Position numbers and translations under genes: made by a program. Below are positions 1-28,410 of a stretch of DNA of 28,410 bases, one piece after another. The notes below the pieces were generated by a model. It worked only from the letters and a program-made list of their open reading frames with translations. It did no database searches and was not told the origin of the DNA. The first letter of the stretch is position 1, and each line of letters opens with the position of its first letter. This DNA is from a virus, in the IMG/VR virus record IMGVR_UViG_3300017752_000109, positions 1 through 28,410 of that record; one strand, given 5' to 3'.

Positions 1-1727
1 CTGATGTTGATAGCGCCGGTACTATTATTGATGTAGACTTTCTAACCGATGCTAACGGGATTGTATATGATAGTCCTCTTGGTGCAGGCGGATTAAGAAA
101 ACCAACTAAATTTGCTAATCAGGCTGCAATTGCCAATGACACAAGTGTAACTGGTTCAGGAGCATTAATCGACATTACATATAAACTTGAAGCTTTTGAT
201 ATTCTAAATAGCGGAAGTGGTTATTTTAAGTTCAATAATGTAGGCGATCCCGCTCTTGCCGATGGTATGGTTGCAACAGGTGATTCACCTAAACTTCAAA
301 TCTTCAAAGATGGCACAGAAATATATCCGATTAATACTACTCTTGGAAATAGGTCTTTAAGTCCTAGCATTTCTGTTGTAGGAGCAGGCGGAGATAAACT
401 TATCAAGAATGATGATGACTTCGATAATGCAACTGGATTAGATGCAGGTTATTATTCACGATATGCTGGAATATTAGGAGATGGTACTAAAACATATGTT
501 ATTACTTCTGCCAATGCAGCTTCATTAACAATTGGTTCTGGCACAACTTTAGCCAATTCTCAATTTGATGCAGCACCAGATTCTGATGAAGTTCATATTC
601 TAGTAACATCATCATCTGATGCTCTAACTGATTCTGGTACATCGGAAACCGTCGTTGAAAGATGGCCTTTCCTGTCTACTACTTCTGGAGCTAAGAAAGA
701 AGATGGTACTAACAACTACTTCAAAGATGTGATTAATACAGGGTCTGATTGGATTTATGTTGGAAGCGCTGCGGCTGCTTCAACTGGTGGTTCATATTCA
801 CTAACAGGTGGAGCTGACGCTGGAACGAGAGAAGACGGAGAAATCAGTCAAGCATTAGACTTGCTAGCTGATTCAGAAACGCAAGATGTAAACTTACTTT
901 TCACAGAAGAAGATACAAATGGGAAAACCGTATTAGCCAATAAAGTATTGAGTATTGCAACTGATCGTAAGGATTGTGTAGGATTTATTACACCTCCTAT
1001 CGCAGATACAGTTAATACACAAACTCCTTTGGATAACGTAAAAGACTTCTTACAGTCAACATCAGCTGTAATCACACCTAGAAATTCTTATGGAGTTCTT
1101 GGTTCGACAGCAGTTTATGTTTACGATAAGTTTAATGATAAGTTCCTCTATATTGGAACTCAAGGTCACTTAGCCGGTCTTTGTGCAAATACCGATCAAG
1201 TTGCTGAAACATGGTTCTCACCAGGTGGATTCAATCGAGGTCAGTTACGCGGAGTAACTAAGTTGGCTTTCAACCCATCTAAAATTCAAAGAGATGAGTT
1301 GTATAAGGCAGGAATCAATCCTATTGTAACATTCCCCGGTCAAGGTACAGTATTGTTTGGAGATAAAACTCTACAAGCTAAACCTTCCGCGTTCGATAGA
1401 ATTAATGTACGTAGATTGTTTATCACTCTTGAGAAAGCAATTGCTACTGCAGCAAAATTCCAGTTATTCGAACTAAACGATGAGTTCACCAGAGCTTCTT
1501 TCAGAAACTTAGTTGAACCATTCTTACGCGATGTTCAAGGTAGACGTGGTATTACAGACTTCTTAGTAGTATGTGATGAAACCAATAATACCGGTCAAGT
1601 AATCGATACAAATCGTTTCGTTGCGGATATCTATATTAAACCAGCTCGTTCTATTAACTTTATCACTCTTAACTTTATCGCCACAAGAACAGGCGTTGAG
1701 TTCAGTGAGATCGTTGGGAATGTATAA
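1..1727 (+). CDS. gp18: Tail sheath protein gp18 (5' partial)
   Basis: This is the contractile tail sheath subunit, which polymerises around the tail tube and contracts during DNA injection. The reading frame is already open at the left edge (codons from base 3), so the ATG at 267 is internal and the true start lies upstream; 574 residues are visible. The C-terminal part is the conserved sheath core: RRLFITLEKAIATAAKFQLF, then NDEFTRASFRNLVEPFLRDV and GRRGITDF, ending in a beta-rich segment with ARSINFITLNFIATRTGVEF. The N-terminal visible part is Gly/Ser/Asp/Thr-rich and more variable, as in insertion domains of gp18. It lies immediately before tail tube gp19, the usual T4 order. The stop codon lies inside a late promoter box. 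Confidence 0.95.
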   Translation, partial: DVDSAGTIIDVDFLTDANGIVYDSPLGAGGLRKPTKFANQAAIANDTSVTGSGALIDITYKLEAFDILNSGSGYFKFNNVGDPALADGMVATGDSPKLQIFKDGTEIYPINTTLGNRSLSPSISVVGAGGDKLIKNDDDFDNATGLDAGYYSRYAGILGDGTKTYVITSANAASLTIGSGTTLANSQFDAAPDSDEVHILVTSSSDALTDSGTSETVVERWPFLSTTSGAKKEDGTNNYFKDVINTGSDWIYVGSAAAASTGGSYSLTGGADAGTREDGEISQALDLLADSETQDVNLLFTEEDTNGKTVLANKVLSIATDRKDCVGFITPPIADTVNTQTPLDNVKDFLQSTSAVITPRNSYGVLGSTAVYVYDKFNDKFLYIGTQGHLAGLCANTDQVAETWFSPGGFNRGQLRGVTKLAFNPSKIQRDELYKAGINPIVTFPGQGTVLFGDKTLQAKPSAFDRINVRRLFITLEKAIATAAKFQLFELNDEFTRASFRNLVEPFLRDVQGRRGITDFLVVCDETNNTGQVIDTNRFVADIYIKPARSINFITLNFIATRTGVEFSEIVGNV

Positions 1728-6223: not shown

Positions 6224-7567
6224 ATGTTAAACGAAGACACAAATATCAAGAAGTGGGGTGCCGTTCTCGACCACGAGAGTGCAGCTCCTATTCAAGATAA
6301 CTATCGTCGAAGTGTAACTGCTAAGTTGCTTGAAAATACAGAAGTTGCTCAAAGACAGCAACTTTCTGAAAGTAACTTTGGTTCAGGTACATCTTCGAGT
6401 TCTACAGACTTGGGTGTAGTGGGTTCAGCTAATGGATTCGACCCAATTCTTATCTCAATGGTTAGACGTGCAATGCCTAACCTTATCGCATATGACGTTG
6501 CGGGTGTTCAGCCAATGAGCGGACCAACTGGTCTTATCTTTGCACTTAAGGCTCACAAGTCAGAACAAACAACATCAGTTGATACTGATTCACCTGAGTT
6601 ACTTCACCCAGCAATCGGTGCAGACATTGATACTGCATTCTCTGCTAAGGGACAAACAGGACCAACAGAAGATTCGCCTTTCGCAATCAATGATATTGGT
6701 GATACTGTCGCTGACGGTGAAGGTAACCCAAACTACGCTCCTGCTACAGGTAATACTCTAGCAATTGGCGAAGGTGATGCATTCAACTCAGCTGGTATCT
6801 CTATCGAAAAGACATCTGTTACTGCTGTAACACGTGCTCTTAAGGCAGAATACTCAATGGAAATGGCTCAAGACCTTAAAGCTATTCATGGTCTTGACGC
6901 TGAGTCTGAATTGGCTAATATCCTATCTGCAGAAATTCTTGCTGAAATCAACCGTGAGGTTATTCGTAAGATTGTCACAGCAGCTAAGTTAGGTCTTGGC
7001 AATATTGCTAAACCAGCTGGTGCTACAAAGCACACATTCGACTTGGTCGGAGACGCTGATGGTCGTTGGGCTGTTGAGAAGTTCAAGTCTCTTATCTTCC
7101 AATTAGAAGTTGAGGCTAATACAATTGCAAAAGAAACTCGTAGAGGAAAGGGTAATATCATTATCTGTTCTTCTAATGTAGCTTCTGCTCTAGCAGCATC
7201 TGGTTCTCTAGATTATGCTAATGCAATTTCTGCTAACCTAAACGTTGATGATTCTGGTAATACATTTGCTGGAACACTTAACGGACGTATGAAGGTCTAC
7301 ATCGACCCATATGCTGCATCAGATTATGCAGTTGTAGGTTATAAGGGAACTTCACCATTCGACGCAGGATTGTTCTATTGCCCATACGTACCACTAACTA
7401 TGGTTCGTGCGATTGATGAAACAACATTCCAGCCAAAAATGGCATTCAAGACTCGTTATGGTCTTGTAGCGAATCCGTTTGCATCATTAACAATAGATAG
7501 TAACCAATACTACCGTAAGTTTGGTGTTAGCAACATTAACGTAGGTGGCTCAAGCTCACTATCCTAA
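6224..7567 (+). CDS. gp23: Major capsid protein gp23
   Basis: This is the main shell protein of the head, an HK97-fold subunit. It has 447 residues, shorter than T4 gp23 (521) but close to marine relatives. Recognisable segments are DPILISMVRRAMPNLIAYDV, GVQPMSGPTGLIFALKAHK, YSMEMAQDLKAIHGLDAESE, EINREVIRKI and the C-terminal MAFKTRYGLVANPF. A likely gp21 cleavage site is LSE at residues 47-49, which would remove an N-terminal propeptide as in T4 (after Glu65). AAAGGAAA about 7 nt upstream serves as ribosome binding site. No late box is visible directly upstream, so expression probably comes from upstream late promoters. It ends in a strong terminator. Confidence 0.97.
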   Translation: MLNEDTNIKKWGAVLDHESAAPIQDNYRRSVTAKLLENTEVAQRQQLSESNFGSGTSSSSTDLGVVGSANGFDPILISMVRRAMPNLIAYDVAGVQPMSGPTGLIFALKAHKSEQTTSVDTDSPELLHPAIGADIDTAFSAKGQTGPTEDSPFAINDIGDTVADGEGNPNYAPATGNTLAIGEGDAFNSAGISIEKTSVTAVTRALKAEYSMEMAQDLKAIHGLDAESELANILSAEILAEINREVIRKIVTAAKLGLGNIAKPAGATKHTFDLVGDADGRWAVEKFKSLIFQLEVEANTIAKETRRGKGNIIICSSNVASALAASGSLDYANAISANLNVDDSGNTFAGTLNGRMKVYIDPYAASDYAVVGYKGTSPFDAGLFYCPYVPLTMVRAIDETTFQPKMAFKTRYGLVANPFASLTIDSNQYYRKFGVSNINVGGSSSLS

Positions 7568-7596: not shown

Positions 7597-7627
7597 GAGG
7601 GTTCTCGAAAGGGAACCCTCTTTTTTT
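7597..7627 (+). terminator. Rho-independent terminator after gp23
   Basis: A 10-bp stem (GAGGGTTCTC with GGGAACCCTC, one T-G pair) closes a GAAA tetraloop and is followed by seven T. This is the strongest terminator in the window and ends the head gene transcript. Confidence 0.92.
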
Positions 7628-7628
7628 G

Positions 7629-7636
7629 TATAAATA
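7629..7636 (+). promoter_or_regulatory. Late promoter box (second tube gene), near-leaderless
   Basis: A perfect TATAAATA follows the gp23 terminator by 1 nt and ends 6 nt before the ATG at 7643. The expected transcript start is at or beside the ATG, and no Shine-Dalgarno is present. Confidence 0.7.
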
Positions 7637-7642
7637 AGAGAT

Positions 7643-8107
7643 ATGGCAACGAATAACTTAACTACGAATTTAAACCTATTAGCACCTACTGGTTTTAGAT
7701 TGACAATCAATCGCGAAAAGTTTGCTAATACTGAATTCTTTGTAACCTCATTTTCTTTACCTAGTTTGAATTTAGGAGAAACTCAGGTTAATTATAAGAA
7801 TGCTACAGGATATGCTCCAGGCGAAACATTAACCTTTGATAGCCTTTCTATGAGATTAGCAATTGATGAAGGTATGGAATCATATTCAGAACTATTAAAC
7901 TGGATGGTTAGAAATGAAACAACATTAGAAGTAAATGATATGATTATATCAATTCTAGGTAATACTTCAAATTCTAATAAACAGATTCAATTTTCAAATG
8001 TTTTTCCAGTTTCAGTTTCAGGCGTAGAGTTTTCTACTCAGGCAACCGACGTTGAATATTTACAAACAGACATTACATTTAGATACGATAGATTTACGAT
8101 ACTTTAG
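7643..8107 (+). CDS. Second gp19-like tail tube fold protein
   Basis: A 154-residue protein with the same pattern as tail tube gp19: a short N-terminus, then FRLTINREKF, VTSFSLPSLNLGE, a turn GYAPGETLTFDSLSMRLAID, and SELLNWMVRN, ending in a beta segment (DITFRYDRF). The gp19 of this phage shows the parallel FRATINFP...TSFMCKAAQLPS...FERWMNGI. It is therefore most likely a virion protein with the tail tube fold, such as a minor tube, tail terminator or baseplate-proximal component. It has its own terminator-bounded late promoter. Whether it matches gp54, gp3 or another tube-fold protein cannot be decided by eye. Confidence 0.65.
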   Translation: MATNNLTTNLNLLAPTGFRLTINREKFANTEFFVTSFSLPSLNLGETQVNYKNATGYAPGETLTFDSLSMRLAIDEGMESYSELLNWMVRNETTLEVNDMIISILGNTSNSNKQIQFSNVFPVSVSGVEFSTQATDVEYLQTDITFRYDRFTIL

Positions 8108-8887: not shown

Positions 8888-9674
8888 AGGAGAACATTTT
8901 CCTCGGTTAGCCGATCATGTTTTAACTTATTATAATAAAGATTTTTCCGATGGTAAATCTATAAGAGATGGTCACACTATTTATTGTGATACACACCAAT
9001 TAAATAAATGGAAAGATGTTTTAATTCAAAAAAAAGATTTAACAATAATTACACACAATAGTGACGGGTTTATCACTGAGTGCAATCCGGCTTGGAGAGA
9101 AGATGGAGTATATTGGAAAGATTTTGAAGGATGCTTTAAAGTATGGTTTGCTCAAAACAATTTTACTGATGTTCCAAACATTTATTCTATACCGATTGGA
9201 TTTGAAAATACAAGATGGGATAAGAATAAAATAAAACAACATACTTATAAAAAAGTATTAGAAAATACTATTCCAAATCCTACCAAGGTTGCTTATTTAA
9301 ATTGTGCTAAAAGAACAAATGAGGGCGAAAGAAAAAGGTGTTATAATGAAGCTTCTCAAATACCCTTTATTAATTGTGATGAACCAAACTTAACTTATGG
9401 AGATTATATAAACAGATTACAAGACCATAGTTTTGGTTTAAGCCCTGAAGGTAACGGATTAGATTGTCATAGAACCTGGGAAATATTTTTAGTTGGTAGA
9501 ACTCCTGTAATGAAATTTAAACCTGCTTTATATAGATTATATGGTGATGATGTAATATGGGTAGAAAGTTGGAAAGATATCACTAAGGAAATACTTAATA
9601 AATACAAAGGTACATTTAATAGAAAAAAACTTACCCAGCAATATTGGGATAATTACGTTTTAAAAACTATATAA
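8877..9674 (+). CDS. Exostosin-like glycosyltransferase (putative)
   Basis: A 265-residue protein whose C-terminal half resembles exostosin/GT47-type transferases: SFGLSPEGNGLDCHRTWEIF followed by LVGRTPVMK, the usual nucleotide-sugar binding segment with the Glu-Gly and Arg-x-x-Glu pattern. The N-terminal half contains TIITHNSD and IYSIPIGFENTRW, also seen in this group. The start at 8877 overlaps the upstream glycosyltransferase by 11 nt, so the two are coupled and probably act in one pathway. Its TAA stop lies inside the late promoter box of uvsY. The region looks more AT-rich than the head genes, which fits an accessory gene gained by transfer. The substrate is unknown. Confidence 0.6.
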   Translation: MLVKGEHFPRLADHVLTYYNKDFSDGKSIRDGHTIYCDTHQLNKWKDVLIQKKDLTIITHNSDGFITECNPAWREDGVYWKDFEGCFKVWFAQNNFTDVPNIYSIPIGFENTRWDKNKIKQHTYKKVLENTIPNPTKVAYLNCAKRTNEGERKRCYNEASQIPFINCDEPNLTYGDYINRLQDHSFGLSPEGNGLDCHRTWEIFLVGRTPVMKFKPALYRLYGDDVIWVESWKDITKEILNKYKGTFNRKKLTQQYWDNYVLKTI

Positions 9675-9677
9675 ATA
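9670..9677 (+). promoter_or_regulatory. Late promoter box (uvsY), near-leaderless
   Basis: A perfect TATAAATA contains the stop codon of the preceding gene and ends 6 nt before the uvsY ATG, the same spacing as at gp20 and the second tube gene. Confidence 0.65.
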
Positions 9678-9683
9678 ATTATT

Positions 9684-10130
9684 ATGACATTAGACGATAT
9701 TATGAAAATGTGGGAGCGTGATTGTGAAATTGATGATCTTGCCCTAGACGATGAGACTAAGAAAACGTCAAAGCTTCATGCTAAATATTTAGAACTAGTG
9801 AATGTCAATAGACTTCAAAGAGCGAAGTTAGATAGTGACCTTGATACCCTAAAAAAAGATAAGTGGTTATATTACACTGGTAAGATGACCAAACAGGATA
9901 TGGATATGAGAGGTTGGGGATATGACCCCTTTAATGGTGGAATTAAACCATTAAAGTCTGAGCTATCATTTTATTATGATTCAGATGAAGACCTTGTTAA
10001 AGTCAAGCAAAAAATAGAATACCAAAAAGTTGTTGGTAATTTGCTTGAAGAAATAATGAATAATCTTCGCTGGAGACATACGCATGTTAAAAATATTATA
10101 GATTGGAAGAAGTTTGTTTCAGGTACATAA
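9684..10130 (+). CDS. uvsY: Recombination mediator UvsY
   Basis: UvsY loads the UvsX recombinase onto gp32-covered single-stranded DNA. The 148-residue product (T4 has 137) shows the family pattern: an N-terminal helix (LDDIMKMWERDCEIDDLALD), a basic helix with NRLQRAKLDSDLDTLKKDKW, the YYTGKM turn, an SFYYDSDEDLVKV segment and a C-terminal helix ending HVKNIIDWKKF, parallel to AIKHIQDMRAFEAG of T4. It lies directly before uvsW and overlaps it by 17 nt. The ATG is in ATTATTATG without a Shine-Dalgarno, directly after a late promoter box. Confidence 0.88.
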   Translation: MTLDDIMKMWERDCEIDDLALDDETKKTSKLHAKYLELVNVNRLQRAKLDSDLDTLKKDKWLYYTGKMTKQDMDMRGWGYDPFNGGIKPLKSELSFYYDSDEDLVKVKQKIEYQKVVGNLLEEIMNNLRWRHTHVKNIIDWKKFVSGT

Positions 10131-11592: not shown

Positions 11593-12041
11593 GTATATTC
11601 ACAAATAAAGAAGAAGCTACCGTGTTTACCTATCATCTGGTTGACGGAAGTTATATTATGGCAGAAGAGGTAGATTACGATTTTGAAGATAATGTAATCT
11701 TTGTAATTAACCCAGTAAAGATTGCTCAAGTAAGAGGTAAATACCAATTAATGAATTGGGGTATTACAGAGCCATCTCAACCAGTACAATTAAAAGATGA
11801 CATGATAATTGCAAGTTCTGCAGCTCCCACCGCATTAAAGCATAATTACTTTCAATTTAATATGCTGAATATAATGTCGAATACCTTGCCCAAGAACGAA
11901 TTTGATGAAATCATTAACTTATTATTTTCTGGTATTGATTCTAAAGATACTTCTGAAGAAGACGAAGAAACAGAGTTTGATTTCGATAAACAATACGAAA
12001 TAAAGAAAGAGAAGAAGAAAAATCCGTGGGATAGATATTAA
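11589..12041 (+). CDS. Conserved phage protein, possible Sm-like fold
   Basis: A 150-residue protein coupled to uvsW by an ATGA overlap. The N-terminal 45 residues (TYHLVDGSYIMAEEVDYDFE, then NVIFVINPVKIAQ) follow the alternation of the Sm1 region in Lsm/Hfq-like proteins: a strand ending in DG, a bend with Glu, then a strand ending in NP. The middle carries a second strand set (KDDMIIASSAAP, YFQFNML), and the tail is acidic then basic (SEEDEETEFDFDKQYEIKKE). The position between UvsW and gp55 suggests a role in nucleic acid metabolism. The Sm-like fold is an inference from the strand pattern; the gene has no recognised function. Confidence 0.5.
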   Translation: MSIFTNKEEATVFTYHLVDGSYIMAEEVDYDFEDNVIFVINPVKIAQVRGKYQLMNWGITEPSQPVQLKDDMIIASSAAPTALKHNYFQFNMLNIMSNTLPKNEFDEIINLLFSGIDSKDTSEEDEETEFDFDKQYEIKKEKKKNPWDRY

Positions 12042-12060
12042 AGGATTCCGTTCCTTTGGT

Positions 12061-12083
12061 TTGGTACTAAACTATTATACCAA
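12061..12083 (+). terminator. Hairpin before gp55 promoter
   Basis: A perfect 6-bp inverted repeat TTGGTA/TACCAA has an 11-nt loop and is followed by CTTTGTC. It resembles the TGGTTA/TAACCA hairpin upstream of the gp43 promoter in size and placement but lacks a real T run, so it is at best a weak terminator. Confidence 0.35.
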
Positions 12084-12134
12084 CTTTGTCAAACGATGTA
12101 AAGAGAAAAATAACAAAAAAGACATATTTTTTTA

Positions 12135-12163
12135 TTGATTAATCTTCAATCTTGTGATATAGT
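12135..12163 (+). promoter_or_regulatory. Sigma70-like promoter of gp55, extended -10
   Basis: TTGATT (12135-12140), a 17-bp spacer and TATAGT (12158-12163), with TG one base upstream of the -10 as in extended -10 promoters. Transcription should start near 12170, about 3 nt before the gp55 ATG. It would be used by host polymerase early, before late transcription, which makes sense for a late sigma factor. Confidence 0.75.
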
Positions 12164-12172
12164 ATATACATT

Positions 12173-12763
12173 ATGAAACAAAAACAAAAAAGAGTAAAAA
12201 GAGCTAAAGAGCATTATGTAAATAATAAAGAATTCTCTCAGGCTGTTGTTGATTACGTTAACTCTACAAATGAAGCAAAAGAGAAGGGTGAGACAGAACC
12301 CATTATTCCAAATTATATTGGTGAATGTTTCCTAAAAATCTCTGAAGGTCTTTCTCATAAACCTAATTTCATTTCATACACTTATCGTGAAGAAATGGTA
12401 ATGGATGCAGTTGAAAACTGTATTAAGGCTATTATGAACTATGATATTACTAAAGCAACACGTACAGGATTGCCTAATGCGTTTGCGTACTTTACACAGA
12501 TATCATACTTCGCGTTTTTACGACGCATAGCAAAAGAGAAAAGACAGCAAGACATTAAAGAGTTATACATTGATTACGCAGGAGCCGATGCCTTTATGGA
12601 TACCGGAGACTATAGCGATTCAAATTCTATCGTTGAAAGAATAAGACACAAATCAGCTGCTATTCGTGATAGAGATAATAAGATCAAAGAGTTCGGTAAA
12701 AAGATAAAGAATAAGGCAAAGAAAAAAGTAGTTGGTCAGTTGGACCAATTTCTAGAGAACTAA
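12173..12763 (+). CDS. gp55: Late transcription sigma factor gp55
   Basis: gp55 directs host RNA polymerase to TATAAATA late promoters; with the gp45 clamp it couples late transcription to replication. The 196-residue product (T4 has 185) aligns with T4 gp55 at YVNNKEFSQAVVDY near the N-terminus, IGECFLKISEGLSHKPNF, YTYREEMVMDAVENCIKAIM and NAFAYFTQISYFAFLRRIAK, the sigma region 2 core. The C-terminal GQLDQFLEN resembles the sliding-clamp binding peptide at the end of T4 gp55. It has its own sigma70-like promoter and almost no leader. The T4 coactivator gp33 is not seen in this window. Confidence 0.93.
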   Translation: MKQKQKRVKRAKEHYVNNKEFSQAVVDYVNSTNEAKEKGETEPIIPNYIGECFLKISEGLSHKPNFISYTYREEMVMDAVENCIKAIMNYDITKATRTGLPNAFAYFTQISYFAFLRRIAKEKRQQDIKELYIDYAGADAFMDTGDYSDSNSIVERIRHKSAAIRDRDNKIKEFGKKIKNKAKKKVVGQLDQFLEN

Positions 12764-12769
12764 TATATT

Positions 12770-13828
12770 ATGCAAATAGCAATATTGAATGACACTCATT
12801 GTGGTGTCAAGAACGGCAGTGACGTGTTCTTAAAGAACGCAGAACAATTTTATACAAATGTTTTCTTTCCATATTTGAAAGAAAACGGTATTAATCAAAT
12901 CTTACATTTAGGTGATTACTTTGAACACCGAAAGTATGTAAACTTCAAAGCTCTTAATCAGAATAAGAGAATGTTTTTAGATATACTTCGTGATAGAGGA
13001 ATATATATGTATATTATTCCAGGCAACCATGATGTTTATTATAAAAATACAAATAACTTAAATTCATTAAAAGAACTTCTTTCTGAATATAGCGATTGCG
13101 TTTCTATTTATGAAGACCCTATTGACTTGCCTTGTGGTGATACGACTGTTGGTATGGTACCATGGATATGCCCCGAAAACGAAGATAAGTGTTTAGACTT
13201 TTTAGAGAATAGTAAGTCAAATATTATTATGGGTCACTTCGAGTTAGGTGGATTTCAATATATGGCCAATGCTAATATCAAATCACATGGTATGGATAAG
13301 AATAAACTAAAAAGATTTGAAGCCGTTTACTCTGGACATTATCATACAAAGTCGACTCAAGATAACGTGACCTACCTAGGTACTCAATTAGAGTTAACAT
13401 GGAATGATGCAGGAGACCCAAAGTATTTTCATATTTTCGATACTGACACTCGTGATATGACTCCAGTTAGAAACCCGTATACACTATTTGAAAAAATTAC
13501 GTACGACGAAGAAAATCCTATTTCATTGAGAGAAGAAATGGTTGCTGGTAAGTATATTAAGATTGTGGTTCTATCAAAGAAAAATCTTTTTGAGTTTGAC
13601 AAATTCCTAGAAAAGGTATATAATTTTAATCCTCACGAGGTAAAAATAATAGAAACCTTTGAAGAGTATGCAGGTAGTTCTGTAGACGATGAAAAAATTT
13701 CAACAGCTAATACACAAACTCTATTAAATGAATATGTAGATGCGACTGAAACAAATTTAGATAATGATAAACTTAAGAAGATGCTACAAGAATTATATGT
13801 AGAAGCTCAGGCCTATGATAGTATTTAA
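12770..13828 (+). CDS. gp47: Recombination nuclease subunit gp47 (Mre11-like)
   Basis: gp47 is the calcineurin-like phosphoesterase subunit of the gp46/gp47 complex, which resects DNA ends for recombination-dependent replication. Metal-binding motifs appear in order: NDTH (residues 7-10), GDYFEHR (48-54), PGNHDVYY (84-91), GHFELGG and SGHYHTK. It has 352 residues (T4 has 339). The start at 12770 is in TATATTATG, with AGAGAA about 10 nt upstream as the only possible ribosome binding site. It follows gp55 by 6 nt and overlaps gp46 by 14 nt, so the two subunits are coupled. Confidence 0.96.
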   Translation: MQIAILNDTHCGVKNGSDVFLKNAEQFYTNVFFPYLKENGINQILHLGDYFEHRKYVNFKALNQNKRMFLDILRDRGIYMYIIPGNHDVYYKNTNNLNSLKELLSEYSDCVSIYEDPIDLPCGDTTVGMVPWICPENEDKCLDFLENSKSNIIMGHFELGGFQYMANANIKSHGMDKNKLKRFEAVYSGHYHTKSTQDNVTYLGTQLELTWNDAGDPKYFHIFDTDTRDMTPVRNPYTLFEKITYDEENPISLREEMVAGKYIKIVVLSKKNLFEFDKFLEKVYNFNPHEVKIIETFEEYAGSSVDDEKISTANTQTLLNEYVDATETNLDNDKLKKMLQELYVEAQAYDSI

Positions 13829-15639: not shown

Positions 15640-15665
15640 ATAGATACAAAATGAGGTTAGCAAAT

Positions 15666-24881: not shown

Positions 24882-24889
24882 TATAAATA
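24882..24889 (+). promoter_or_regulatory. Late promoter box before hsp20
   Basis: A perfect TATAAATA follows the terminator. The transcript should start near 24895, at a hairpin TGATG/CATCA (24894-24898/24915-24919) with inner CTCA/TGAG, about 60 nt before the ATG. Confidence 0.65.
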
Positions 24890-24956
24890 ATACTGATGGC
24901 GCTCATGGTGAGGTCATCAATACAACAATAACTCGCTTAAAGAGGAGAAAAATAAT

Positions 24957-25502: not shown

Positions 25503-25531
25503 TTGACATTTACACCTAGTTGGTGTACTAT
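25503..25531 (+). promoter_or_regulatory. Sigma70-like promoter of gp43 with inverted repeat in spacer
   Basis: A perfect TTGACA (25503-25508), a 17-bp spacer and TACTAT (25526-25531). The spacer and first -10 bases hold the inverted repeat TACACC/GGTGTA (25511-25516/25522-25527), a candidate operator. The start near 25538 leaves about 2 nt before the gp43 ATG. Confidence 0.75.
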
Positions 25532-25539
25532 ATTATATT

Positions 25540-28059
25540 ATGAGCAATGGATTTTATACATCAGTTGAAAGATACGGAAACAAGTTGTTATATCGTGGAT
25601 ATGACGACGAATGCAAACGGGTTCAAAAACGAGTTCCGTATAAACCAACTCTTTATTTAGAATCTAAAAAGCCATCAACTGAATGGCATTCTATCGACGG
25701 ACAAAACGTTGAACCACTTCAGCTAAGTTCGATGGCTGAATATAAAGATTTTGTCAAAACACATGGTAGTGTTGCTAAAATATATGGAAACAAAAAACAT
25801 ATTCCTGCTTTTATTCAGCATGTGTTTCCTAATGAAATTAATTTTAATCGTGGACTAATTGATGTTTGGTCTTTTGATATTGAAACTGAATACGGATATG
25901 GTTTTCCAAACCCTGATAATCCAGTTGTTCCTATTCTGTCAATTGCCTTAAAGAGTTCTCGTGAAACTTTCTATCGTGTTTGGGGTATGGGAGACTATGA
26001 CCCAGACAAATCAGAACTTGACTTAGATATAAAATATTACAAGTGCAAGAATGAACAAGAATTACTTCACGAGTTTTTAACACATTGGTCACAAAATCAC
26101 CCCGACATTGTTACAGGTTGGAACTCAAGATTTTTCGATATTCCATATTTAGTTGCAAGAACTGCTCACCTGCTTGATAGTCAGATAGTCAAACAATTCT
26201 CACCCTGGAAGTTGGTTGAACGACAAGAGATTTTTATTCAAGGTCGAATGAATGTCTCATATCGCATTCAAGGAGTTGCAGACTTGGACTATATGGAACT
26301 ATTCAAAAAGTTTGCTTATACATATGGTAACCAAGAATCATATTCACTTAACCACATTTCTCATGTTGTACTTGGAGAACAAAAGATTGATTATGGTGAA
26401 TACGGAAACCTTAAGAATTTACATAATGAAAACTATCAGAAGTTCATCGATTACAATATTAAAGACGTTGAGCTAATTGAAAGACTTGAAGAAAAGATCG
26501 GTCTGATTACTCTAGTTGCTACTGTTGCTTATATGGGCGGTGTTAATTATGGCGATACCCTAGGAACAACTGCAATATGGGATGCAATCATTTATCGTAA
26601 TCTTTGCCGAAAGAAACAAGTACCAAACATAGAACAAATCAGACAGAGTGATTATCAGATTATTGCTGGTGGTGAAAAGATTGCTGGCGGATATGTTAAA
26701 GAAGTTCAAGAAGGTATGCATGACTGGGTAATGTCTTTTGACTTAAACTCTCTTTATCCAAACATTATTGTACAAAACAATATCTCGCCCGAAACAATGC
26801 GAGCAGAAGAACAAAAGTTTGGAGTAAACCCTGATACTATACTTGATGGCTCTGCCCCTAAACCAGAAGAACATTACTCAATGTGTGGTAATGGCGCAAT
26901 GTTTACAAATGGAAAGCAAGGAATCATACCCGAGATTATTGAAAAGCTATATGCCCATCGAGTTGAAGTAAAAGACAAGATGCTTACAAAAAAACGAGAA
27001 CGAGAAATCAAAGGTTCTAAAGCAATTGATATTGAAATTACTCGACTTGAGACAACTCAGCATGCGGTTAAGATTTTGCTCAACTCTCTTTACGGAGCTA
27101 TGGCCAACAAATGGTTCAAGTATTATGAACCACAGATGGCTGAAGGTGTAACTCTTACAGGTCAATCGGTTATTCGGACTTCAGAAAAAGCTGTTAACGA
27201 TTTGCTTCAAAGAATTTTCAAAGACAATGCTGACCGAGTTATTGCTATTGATACAGATTCACTTTATGTGAATGTTGATGACGTGGTAAATGCTCAACCA
27301 AATGAAGACCCGCTCGATCTACTTGACAAGTTTGCTACAAGAATTATTGAGCCTGAATTAGAAAAAGCATTTAAACAATATGAAATCACAACTAATGCGT
27401 TCAAGCCAAGAATGGTTATGAAACGAGAAGTGATTGCTGACAGAGCTATTTGGACTGCTAAGAAAAGATACATATTAAATGTACTTGATTCGGAAGGTGT
27501 CCGATTTGCTAAACCTAAGATTAAGATGATGGGTATTGAGGCAGTCAAGTCTTCTACTCCTATGAGTTGCCGAGATGCAATGAAAGGTATGTTCAAGATT
27601 ATGCTCGAAGGTGGTGAAGACGCAACTCAAAAAGCTATCCGTGATTTCAAGATAGCATTTAAAAACCTCAAGCCAGAAGACATTGCTTTTCCTAGAAGTT
27701 GTAATGGAATTGACAAGTTTCATTCTAAGTCTTCAATATATGCTAAAGGTACTCCGATACATGTTCGTGGTTCTCTTTTATATAATCACCGACTAAAAGT
27801 TCTTGGCCTTGAAGATGAATATGAAAAGGTAGAAAACGGAAATAAAATCAAGTTCATATATTTGATGAAACCAAACCCAATACAGGAAAACATTATTTCG
27901 TTTGCTAGTGTATTACCAAAGGAATTTGAGTTGCATAAATATATTGATTACGACAAACAATTTGAAAAGGCCTTTCTTGAACCTCTAGAGATTATACTTG
28001 ACTCTATCGGCTGGACATCAGAACCAGTGGCAAACCTTCAAGAGTTCTTTCAATTTTAA
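25540..28059 (+). CDS. gp43: DNA polymerase gp43 (family B)
   Basis: This is the replicative polymerase with 3'-5' proofreading. The 839-residue product (T4 has 898) has exonuclease motif I SFDIETE (Asp113/Glu115), motif II NSRFFDIPYL, motif III YNIKDVELI (Asp309), polymerase motif A SFDLNSLYPNII (Asp401), motif B KILLNSLYGA (511-520), motif C IDTDSLY (Asp571/Asp573) and KKRY. The C-terminal NLQEFFQF resembles the clamp-binding end of T4/RB69 gp43. The ATG is in TATATTATG, about 2 nt from the predicted transcript start, so T4-style repression by an RNA hairpin in the leader is not possible here. Confidence 0.98.
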   Translation: MSNGFYTSVERYGNKLLYRGYDDECKRVQKRVPYKPTLYLESKKPSTEWHSIDGQNVEPLQLSSMAEYKDFVKTHGSVAKIYGNKKHIPAFIQHVFPNEINFNRGLIDVWSFDIETEYGYGFPNPDNPVVPILSIALKSSRETFYRVWGMGDYDPDKSELDLDIKYYKCKNEQELLHEFLTHWSQNHPDIVTGWNSRFFDIPYLVARTAHLLDSQIVKQFSPWKLVERQEIFIQGRMNVSYRIQGVADLDYMELFKKFAYTYGNQESYSLNHISHVVLGEQKIDYGEYGNLKNLHNENYQKFIDYNIKDVELIERLEEKIGLITLVATVAYMGGVNYGDTLGTTAIWDAIIYRNLCRKKQVPNIEQIRQSDYQIIAGGEKIAGGYVKEVQEGMHDWVMSFDLNSLYPNIIVQNNISPETMRAEEQKFGVNPDTILDGSAPKPEEHYSMCGNGAMFTNGKQGIIPEIIEKLYAHRVEVKDKMLTKKREREIKGSKAIDIEITRLETTQHAVKILLNSLYGAMANKWFKYYEPQMAEGVTLTGQSVIRTSEKAVNDLLQRIFKDNADRVIAIDTDSLYVNVDDVVNAQPNEDPLDLLDKFATRIIEPELEKAFKQYEITTNAFKPRMVMKREVIADRAIWTAKKRYILNVLDSEGVRFAKPKIKMMGIEAVKSSTPMSCRDAMKGMFKIMLEGGEDATQKAIRDFKIAFKNLKPEDIAFPRSCNGIDKFHSKSSIYAKGTPIHVRGSLLYNHRLKVLGLEDEYEKVENGNKIKFIYLMKPNPIQENIISFASVLPKEFELHKYIDYDKQFEKAFLEPLEIILDSIGWTSEPVANLQEFFQF

Positions 28060-28064
28060 ATTGA
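28050..28064. repeat. 15-nt palindrome overlapping gp43 stop and MazG -35
   Basis: TCAATTT-T-AAATTGA is perfect. It includes the gp43 TAA stop and the first four bases of the TTGACA -35 element, so a protein bound here would block the MazG promoter. Confidence 0.4.
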
Positions 28065-28089
28065 CATAAACCACAAAATAGGATATATT
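28061..28089 (+). promoter_or_regulatory. Sigma70-like promoter of MazG-like gene
   Basis: A perfect TTGACA (28061-28066), a 17-bp spacer and TATATT (28084-28089, five of six consensus bases). The start near 28096 is adjacent to the ATG at 28097, so the mRNA should be leaderless. Confidence 0.8.
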
Positions 28090-28096
28090 ATAAACA

Positions 28097-28410
28097 ATGA
28101 GTAATTGGTCAGAAGATATGAAACGCATGCATGAAAAGTTTGAAGTGCATGAAGCAATTAAAAAAATGGATAAAGCCGCCCTTAAATCCTTCTTACGATT
28201 TAGAGTAGCGTGTGTACAAGAAGAAGTGGATGAGCTCAAGTCAGCAACCGCCGCCAATTTGCCAATCGACGCAGAAGAAACAGTTGATGCATTAATCGAT
28301 ATTTGCGTGTTTGCAATTGGTACTTTAGATTTATTTGGCATCGATGCGAATGCCGCATGGGACGAAGTATTGCGAGCTAACGTTAATAAAGAAGTTGGTA
28401 TCAAACCAGA
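28097..28410 (+). CDS. MazG/PRA-PH-like pyrophosphohydrolase (3' partial)
   Basis: The frame is open from the ATG at 28097 to the window end (104 complete codons seen). It begins MSNWSEDMKRMHEKFEVHEA. The all-alpha NTP pyrophosphohydrolase metal-site pattern is visible: VQEEVDEL, then AEETVDALIDICVFAIGTLD, i.e. ExxE and ExxxD on two helices. Marine T4-like phages often carry such a gene, called mazG or phosphoribosyl-ATP pyrophosphohydrolase-like; it may hydrolyse nucleotides or ppGpp-like signals, but its substrate is uncertain. No ribosome binding site is present, in line with a leaderless start. Confidence 0.85.
   Translation, partial: MSNWSEDMKRMHEKFEVHEAIKKMDKAALKSFLRFRVACVQEEVDELKSATAANLPIDAEETVDALIDICVFAIGTLDLFGIDANAAWDEVLRANVNKEVGIKP

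Follow-up and report, generated by a model that had tools for sequence, protein, structure and literature searches.

The window (the whole 28.4-kb stretch of IMG/VR DNA analysed here) is a fragment of a marine T4-like phage, whose genes we assigned via PHROGs. This phage is distant from named phages, as a megablast search against them returned only a 59-base match, and an Rfam scan across the window found no families. The gene for the late sigma factor gp55 (196 aa) lies at 12173–12763 on the plus strand and was identified by a profile search, in which residues 8–186 matched phrog_234 (E = 1.7e-52). Its start is well fixed: an in-frame TGA at 12155–12157 rules out a start codon more than five codons upstream of the ATG, and no ATG, GTG or TTG occurs after M1 until the conserved YVNNK core (residue 16).

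A sigma70-type promoter on the plus strand directly precedes this start codon. The −35 element TTGATT (12135–12140), for which relatives have TTTACA, TTGACA or TGTACA at the equivalent place, is separated by a 17-nt spacer from TATAGT (12158–12163), which, with the TG at 12155–12156, forms the extended −10 element TGATATAGT (12155–12163). Only nine bases, ATATACATT (12164–12172), lie between TATAGT and the ATG at 12173, and there is no Shine-Dalgarno (SD) sequence upstream of this ATG; thus, the promoter that a preliminary description of this DNA had reported is indeed present at 12135–12173, with the gap and the lack of an SD that it gave. The T4-type late motif TATAAATA, expected near position −10, is absent at gp55 itself. 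With normal sigma70 spacing, transcription would start at about A12170, leaving a predicted leader of 3 nt, AUU (12170–12172); the first 61 nt of the predicted transcript fold weakly (−2.5 kcal/mol).

Could most gp55 expression instead come from read-through or from more distant upstream promoters, with the proximal promoter playing a minor part? The message would then carry a longer leader, also without an SD, and would be translated through AU-rich or S1-type recognition of the TATATT-ATG context. The start context does lend something to this idea: ATT precedes the ATG in 25% of ORFs in the clade of the window, compared to 8% in T4 and 6% in Syn9, and these ORFs include the internal genes gp44, gp45 and gp47, which have no promoter there, so that SD-less starts are also seen away from promoters. 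Nevertheless, we think it unlikely that upstream transcription predominates. Between gp55 and the ORF before it lie 131 bp of intergenic DNA that contain a hairpin; the proximal promoter is conserved and is the best one on the plus strand; and loss of the leader accompanies loss of the SD among relatives (see below). Moreover, in the near-identical relative L001, the 150 nt upstream of gp55 hold no other good plus-strand promoter (the best scores 4.2 bits).

Starts preceded by ATATT or ATT occur throughout the window (for example, at 12770, 19473, 20148 and 20525), and the 25% of ORFs with ATT in this position in the clade of the window exceeds the 6–8% in T4, Syn9 and SAR11; ATT or ATATT before the ATG is possibly an SD-less start context. 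Two other elements were noted in the region upstream of gp55. The hairpin AAAGGA-ttccgt-TCCTTT (12037–12060) is located at the stop codon of a 150-aa ORF, and its pairing is kept in the relative L003, in which the hairpin reads AAAGAAC-tcgc-GTTCTTT. On the minus strand, at 12074–12102, there is a strong divergent sigma70-type promoter, TTTACA-17-TATAAT with a TG before the −10, which lies ∼100 nt upstream of gp55 and points leftward, antisense to the 150-aa ORF and uvsW. A minus-strand promoter was found (shuffle P ≤0.05) in 23 of 33 gp55 relatives with a short promoter-to-ATG gap and in 23 of 34 with a long gap; its presence in both groups suggests that it is older than the change in the leader.

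Short promoter-to-ATG gaps at gp55, gp43 and a third gene

The same arrangement is found at two other genes in the window, as the preliminary description had noted. The gp43 promoter, TTGACA-17-TACTAT (25503–25540, plus strand), ends 8 nt before the ATG at 25540, again with no SD, and a TTGACA-17-TATATT promoter (28061–28097, plus strand) ends 7 nt before the ATG at 28097 of an ORF that runs off the window and that is putatively MazG-like, a name carried over from that description. In this AT-rich DNA, a −10-like sequence beside an ATG might be simply a translational or compositional feature that resembles a promoter by chance. A plain consensus promoter scan does not argue against this; it yielded 85 sites, barely above the 73.5 in shuffled sequences, and we rejected the scan alone as evidence. 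For this reason, we counted strong sites close to starts instead. The 28.4 kb contain 10 plus-strand sites with scores ≥10.4 bits, where shuffles give 3.2, and three of these 10 end 7–9 nt before a start codon: those of gp55 (9), gp43 (8) and the MazG-like gene (7). Only ∼0.03 such sites are expected among 34 genes (P ∼5e-6), which supports the positions of the gp43 and MazG-like cases and makes a chance match very improbable. Comparison with relatives points the same way: the −35 element, the 17-nt spacer and the −10 element are kept together, and in a sister clade the promoter lies farther upstream and is accompanied by an SD.

One further candidate, a peptidase gene at 15651 (TAATAT-11-ATG), is probably not a leaderless case, because its homologue in L243 has no counterpart of the first ATG and begins five codons further on, behind AAGG.

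To define the layouts among relatives, we used the best 80 IMG/VR gp55 loci, which fall into two promoter layouts that track the gp55 tree. In the clade of the window, the −10 element ends 5–14 nt from the ATG and no SD is present; conservation of the short gap in related phages had been proposed as a test of the design, and the gap is indeed kept in this clade. In the other large clade, the −10 element ends ∼20–36 nt before the ATG, and most members have GGAG or AAGGAG. Among 61 distinct gp55 upstream regions, an SD core was found with 1 of 26 short-gap promoters versus 24 of 28 long-gap promoters (Fisher P = 3e-10 with kinship ignored, and hence not a true probability, since the gp55 rows are related). 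On a maximum-likelihood gp55 tree, the layout requires 3 changes, compared to ∼20 when the labels are shuffled. The range of gaps in the clade of the window (5–14 nt) implies that some leaders would be 5–8 nt rather than zero, and the gp55 promoter of phage Mosig has a GAGG within its 9-nt gap.

Similarly, gp43 occurs in two states: TATAAT-6-ATG without an SD in L102, L105–L107 and L113, and TATAAT followed by a leader with GGAGG in most other loci. In both genes, predicted leaderless versions can be set directly against leadered counterparts. Upstream of gp55 in L042 and L054, TATAAT-6-ATG opens a 4-codon ORF (ATG AAA GGA AAT TGA) in which the SD of gp55 is embedded and whose stop codon leaves a single base before the gp55 ATG; this ORF is possibly a leaderless upstream mini-ORF.

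Late promoters close to start codons in the window and in isolates

The layout is not limited to promoters of the sigma70 type. The late motif TATAAATA ends 6 nt before the ATG of three genes on the plus strand: gp20 (portal), in which the motif at 2333–2340 (feature 2333–2347) is conserved in gp20 relatives; a tail-tube-family gene, in which a terminator-like hairpin with a T-run is followed by the motif at 7629–7636 (7600–7643 in all); and uvsY, with the motif at 9670–9677 (feature 9670–9684). In relatives of the tail-tube gene, we found 32 distinct TATAAATA sites at a gap of 5–7 nt, often directly after a terminator hairpin and T-run, such that ∼45 bases accommodate the terminator, the promoter and the start codon.

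These genes bear on the proposal, made in the preliminary description, that the short gap is a rule for key regulators rather than chance. The second part of that statement has held, given three sites where 0.03 were expected; the first has not, and we consider it highly improbable that the design marks key regulators only. It is true that gp55, gp43 and the MazG-like gene carry the design, but so do gp20, the tail-tube gene and uvsY, as well as baseplate and tape-measure genes in SAR11 phage HTVC008M (see below), while regA, gp44, gp45 and gp62 are without it.

Across related loci, the gaps between TATAAATA and the ATG cluster sharply at 5, with a second, broad peak at ∼17–21. The gap-5 peak recurs across gene families (tail tube, gp20, uvsY and a 63-aa gene), and permuted motifs gave no peak at gap 5. 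In T4, the late motif is located at −13 to −6 (PMC1524935); thus, with a gap of 5, the A of the ATG becomes +1, and the observed peak matches the published late start. At gaps of 5–8, the start codon is ATG in 72 cases versus GTG or TTG in 3 among the IMG/VR loci, and in 21 versus 0 in three isolates. Elsewhere in the window, at 24882–24931, an 11-codon ORF upstream of hsp20 has TATAAATA 6 nt ahead of its ATG and is possibly a leaderless short upstream ORF.

Among isolates, HTVC008M (KC465899) has a gap of exactly 5 in 8 of 14 late-promoter ORFs (P ∼1e-10 under a uniform gap). The NATAAATA-5-ATG starts are at 6280, 7562, 16007, 18916, 19456, 31132, 49760 and 75559, and in the first 50 kb all seven gap-5 ATGs are the deposited start codons; the genes include gp2, gp25, a gp54-like gene and the tape measure. 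Short-gap late sites were also found in Mosig (6), Melnitz (3) and P-HM1 (1), and at gaps of 3–9 there were none among 23 late-promoter ORFs in T4 or 14 in Syn9. HTVC008M and Mosig, both SAR11 phages, thus belong to the phage group with the layout, as does, more weakly, Melnitz, a phage of OM43. Late-promoter searches in pelagimyophages with methods made for cyanophages failed (PMC7029224), a failure that, by our own inference, the leaderless layout may explain.

On the host side, we examined two SAR11 genome samples, taking the longest ATG frame as the start; with starts so defined, SD cores are present in 8–9% of ORFs and there is no clear excess of short-gap promoters. A strict TTGACA/TATAAT pattern had no matches in four SAR11 genomes.

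Proposed leaderless messages and their relation to known systems

We propose that this marine T4-like group makes early and late mRNAs that have no leader or almost none, that of gp55 in the window among them, a reading to which we assign a probability of roughly three in four. One layout is common to the sigma70-type promoters of gp55, gp43 and the MazG-like gene and to the gp55-dependent late promoters of gp20, the tail-tube gene and uvsY. Early in infection, the RNA polymerase of the host, carrying its principal sigma factor, would make gp55 mRNA from the gene's own promoter, starting ∼0–3 nt before the AUG, and this mRNA would be translated without SD contact, probably by 70S-type initiation. 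The gp55 protein would then direct late promoters, some of which share this short-gap layout. Such a design may be advantageous in allowing compact intergenic regions and SD-independent translation in a host poor in SD sites.

If so, several early as well as late mRNAs of abundant marine T4-like phages, including SAR11 phages, begin with the AUG, and these phages would provide a natural system for studying leaderless translation. Leaderless phage mRNAs are already known from lambda cI and the Thermus phage phiYS40; our searches of open-access papers turned up no account of T4-like phages with leaderless late promoters.

Some of these phages also encode a ribosomal protein bS21: HTVC008M (KC465899, 91237–91392), Mosig and Melnitz (MT647606, 9983–10132, and MZ577097, 35461–35619), and G005, the metagenome contig with the most TATAAATA-5..8-ATG sites. 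Phage bS21 was thus present in all four of the searched records in which short-gap late sites are strong or moderate, a small set in which kinship is uncontrolled, and was absent from T4, Syn9, P-HM1, C48C1, DLP6 and Sf-FP1, some of the searched records being fragments. It is a rather doubtful extension of our proposal that these phages both run a leaderless early and late translation programme and modify the ribosome to favour leaderless mRNA.

T4 has a homologous gp55 family and an identical TATAAATA late motif. However, none of the 23 late-promoter ORFs of T4 has the motif within 9 nt of the ATG, and the SD core is far commoner there, occurring in 0.55 of ORFs versus 0.14–0.24 here. Computational work accepts a TA-like signal ∼10–12 nt ahead of the start as a mark of leaderless genes in bacteria (PMC3160421), and the bacterial class so defined resembles the present genes in having a −10 element at this distance and no SD. 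In genes of this class, the −10-type box ends ∼5–9 nt before the start codon, and here the gaps are 9, 8 and 7 nt at gp55, gp43 and the MazG-like gene and 6 nt at the late genes gp20, tail tube and uvsY; the other features of the leaderless class, lack of an SD and an AUG start, are likewise present. The bacterial class was described for cellular genomes, whereas here the layout occurs in lytic phages and extends to promoters of a phage sigma factor. The cI message of lambda is, similarly, a phage mRNA translated from a 5′-terminal AUG (PMC9031893, PMC3160421), but it comes from a single repressor gene of a temperate phage, while the pattern described here is early and late and runs across many genes. 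The closest precedent that we found is phiYS40, also a lytic phage, the mRNAs of which have been reported to be leaderless (PMC3594737). According to the same review, IF2 rises and IF3 falls during phiYS40 infection, which favours leaderless mRNAs. Both phage and host differ from those considered here, where the layout occurs at the gp55-type TATAAATA late promoters of marine T4-like phages.
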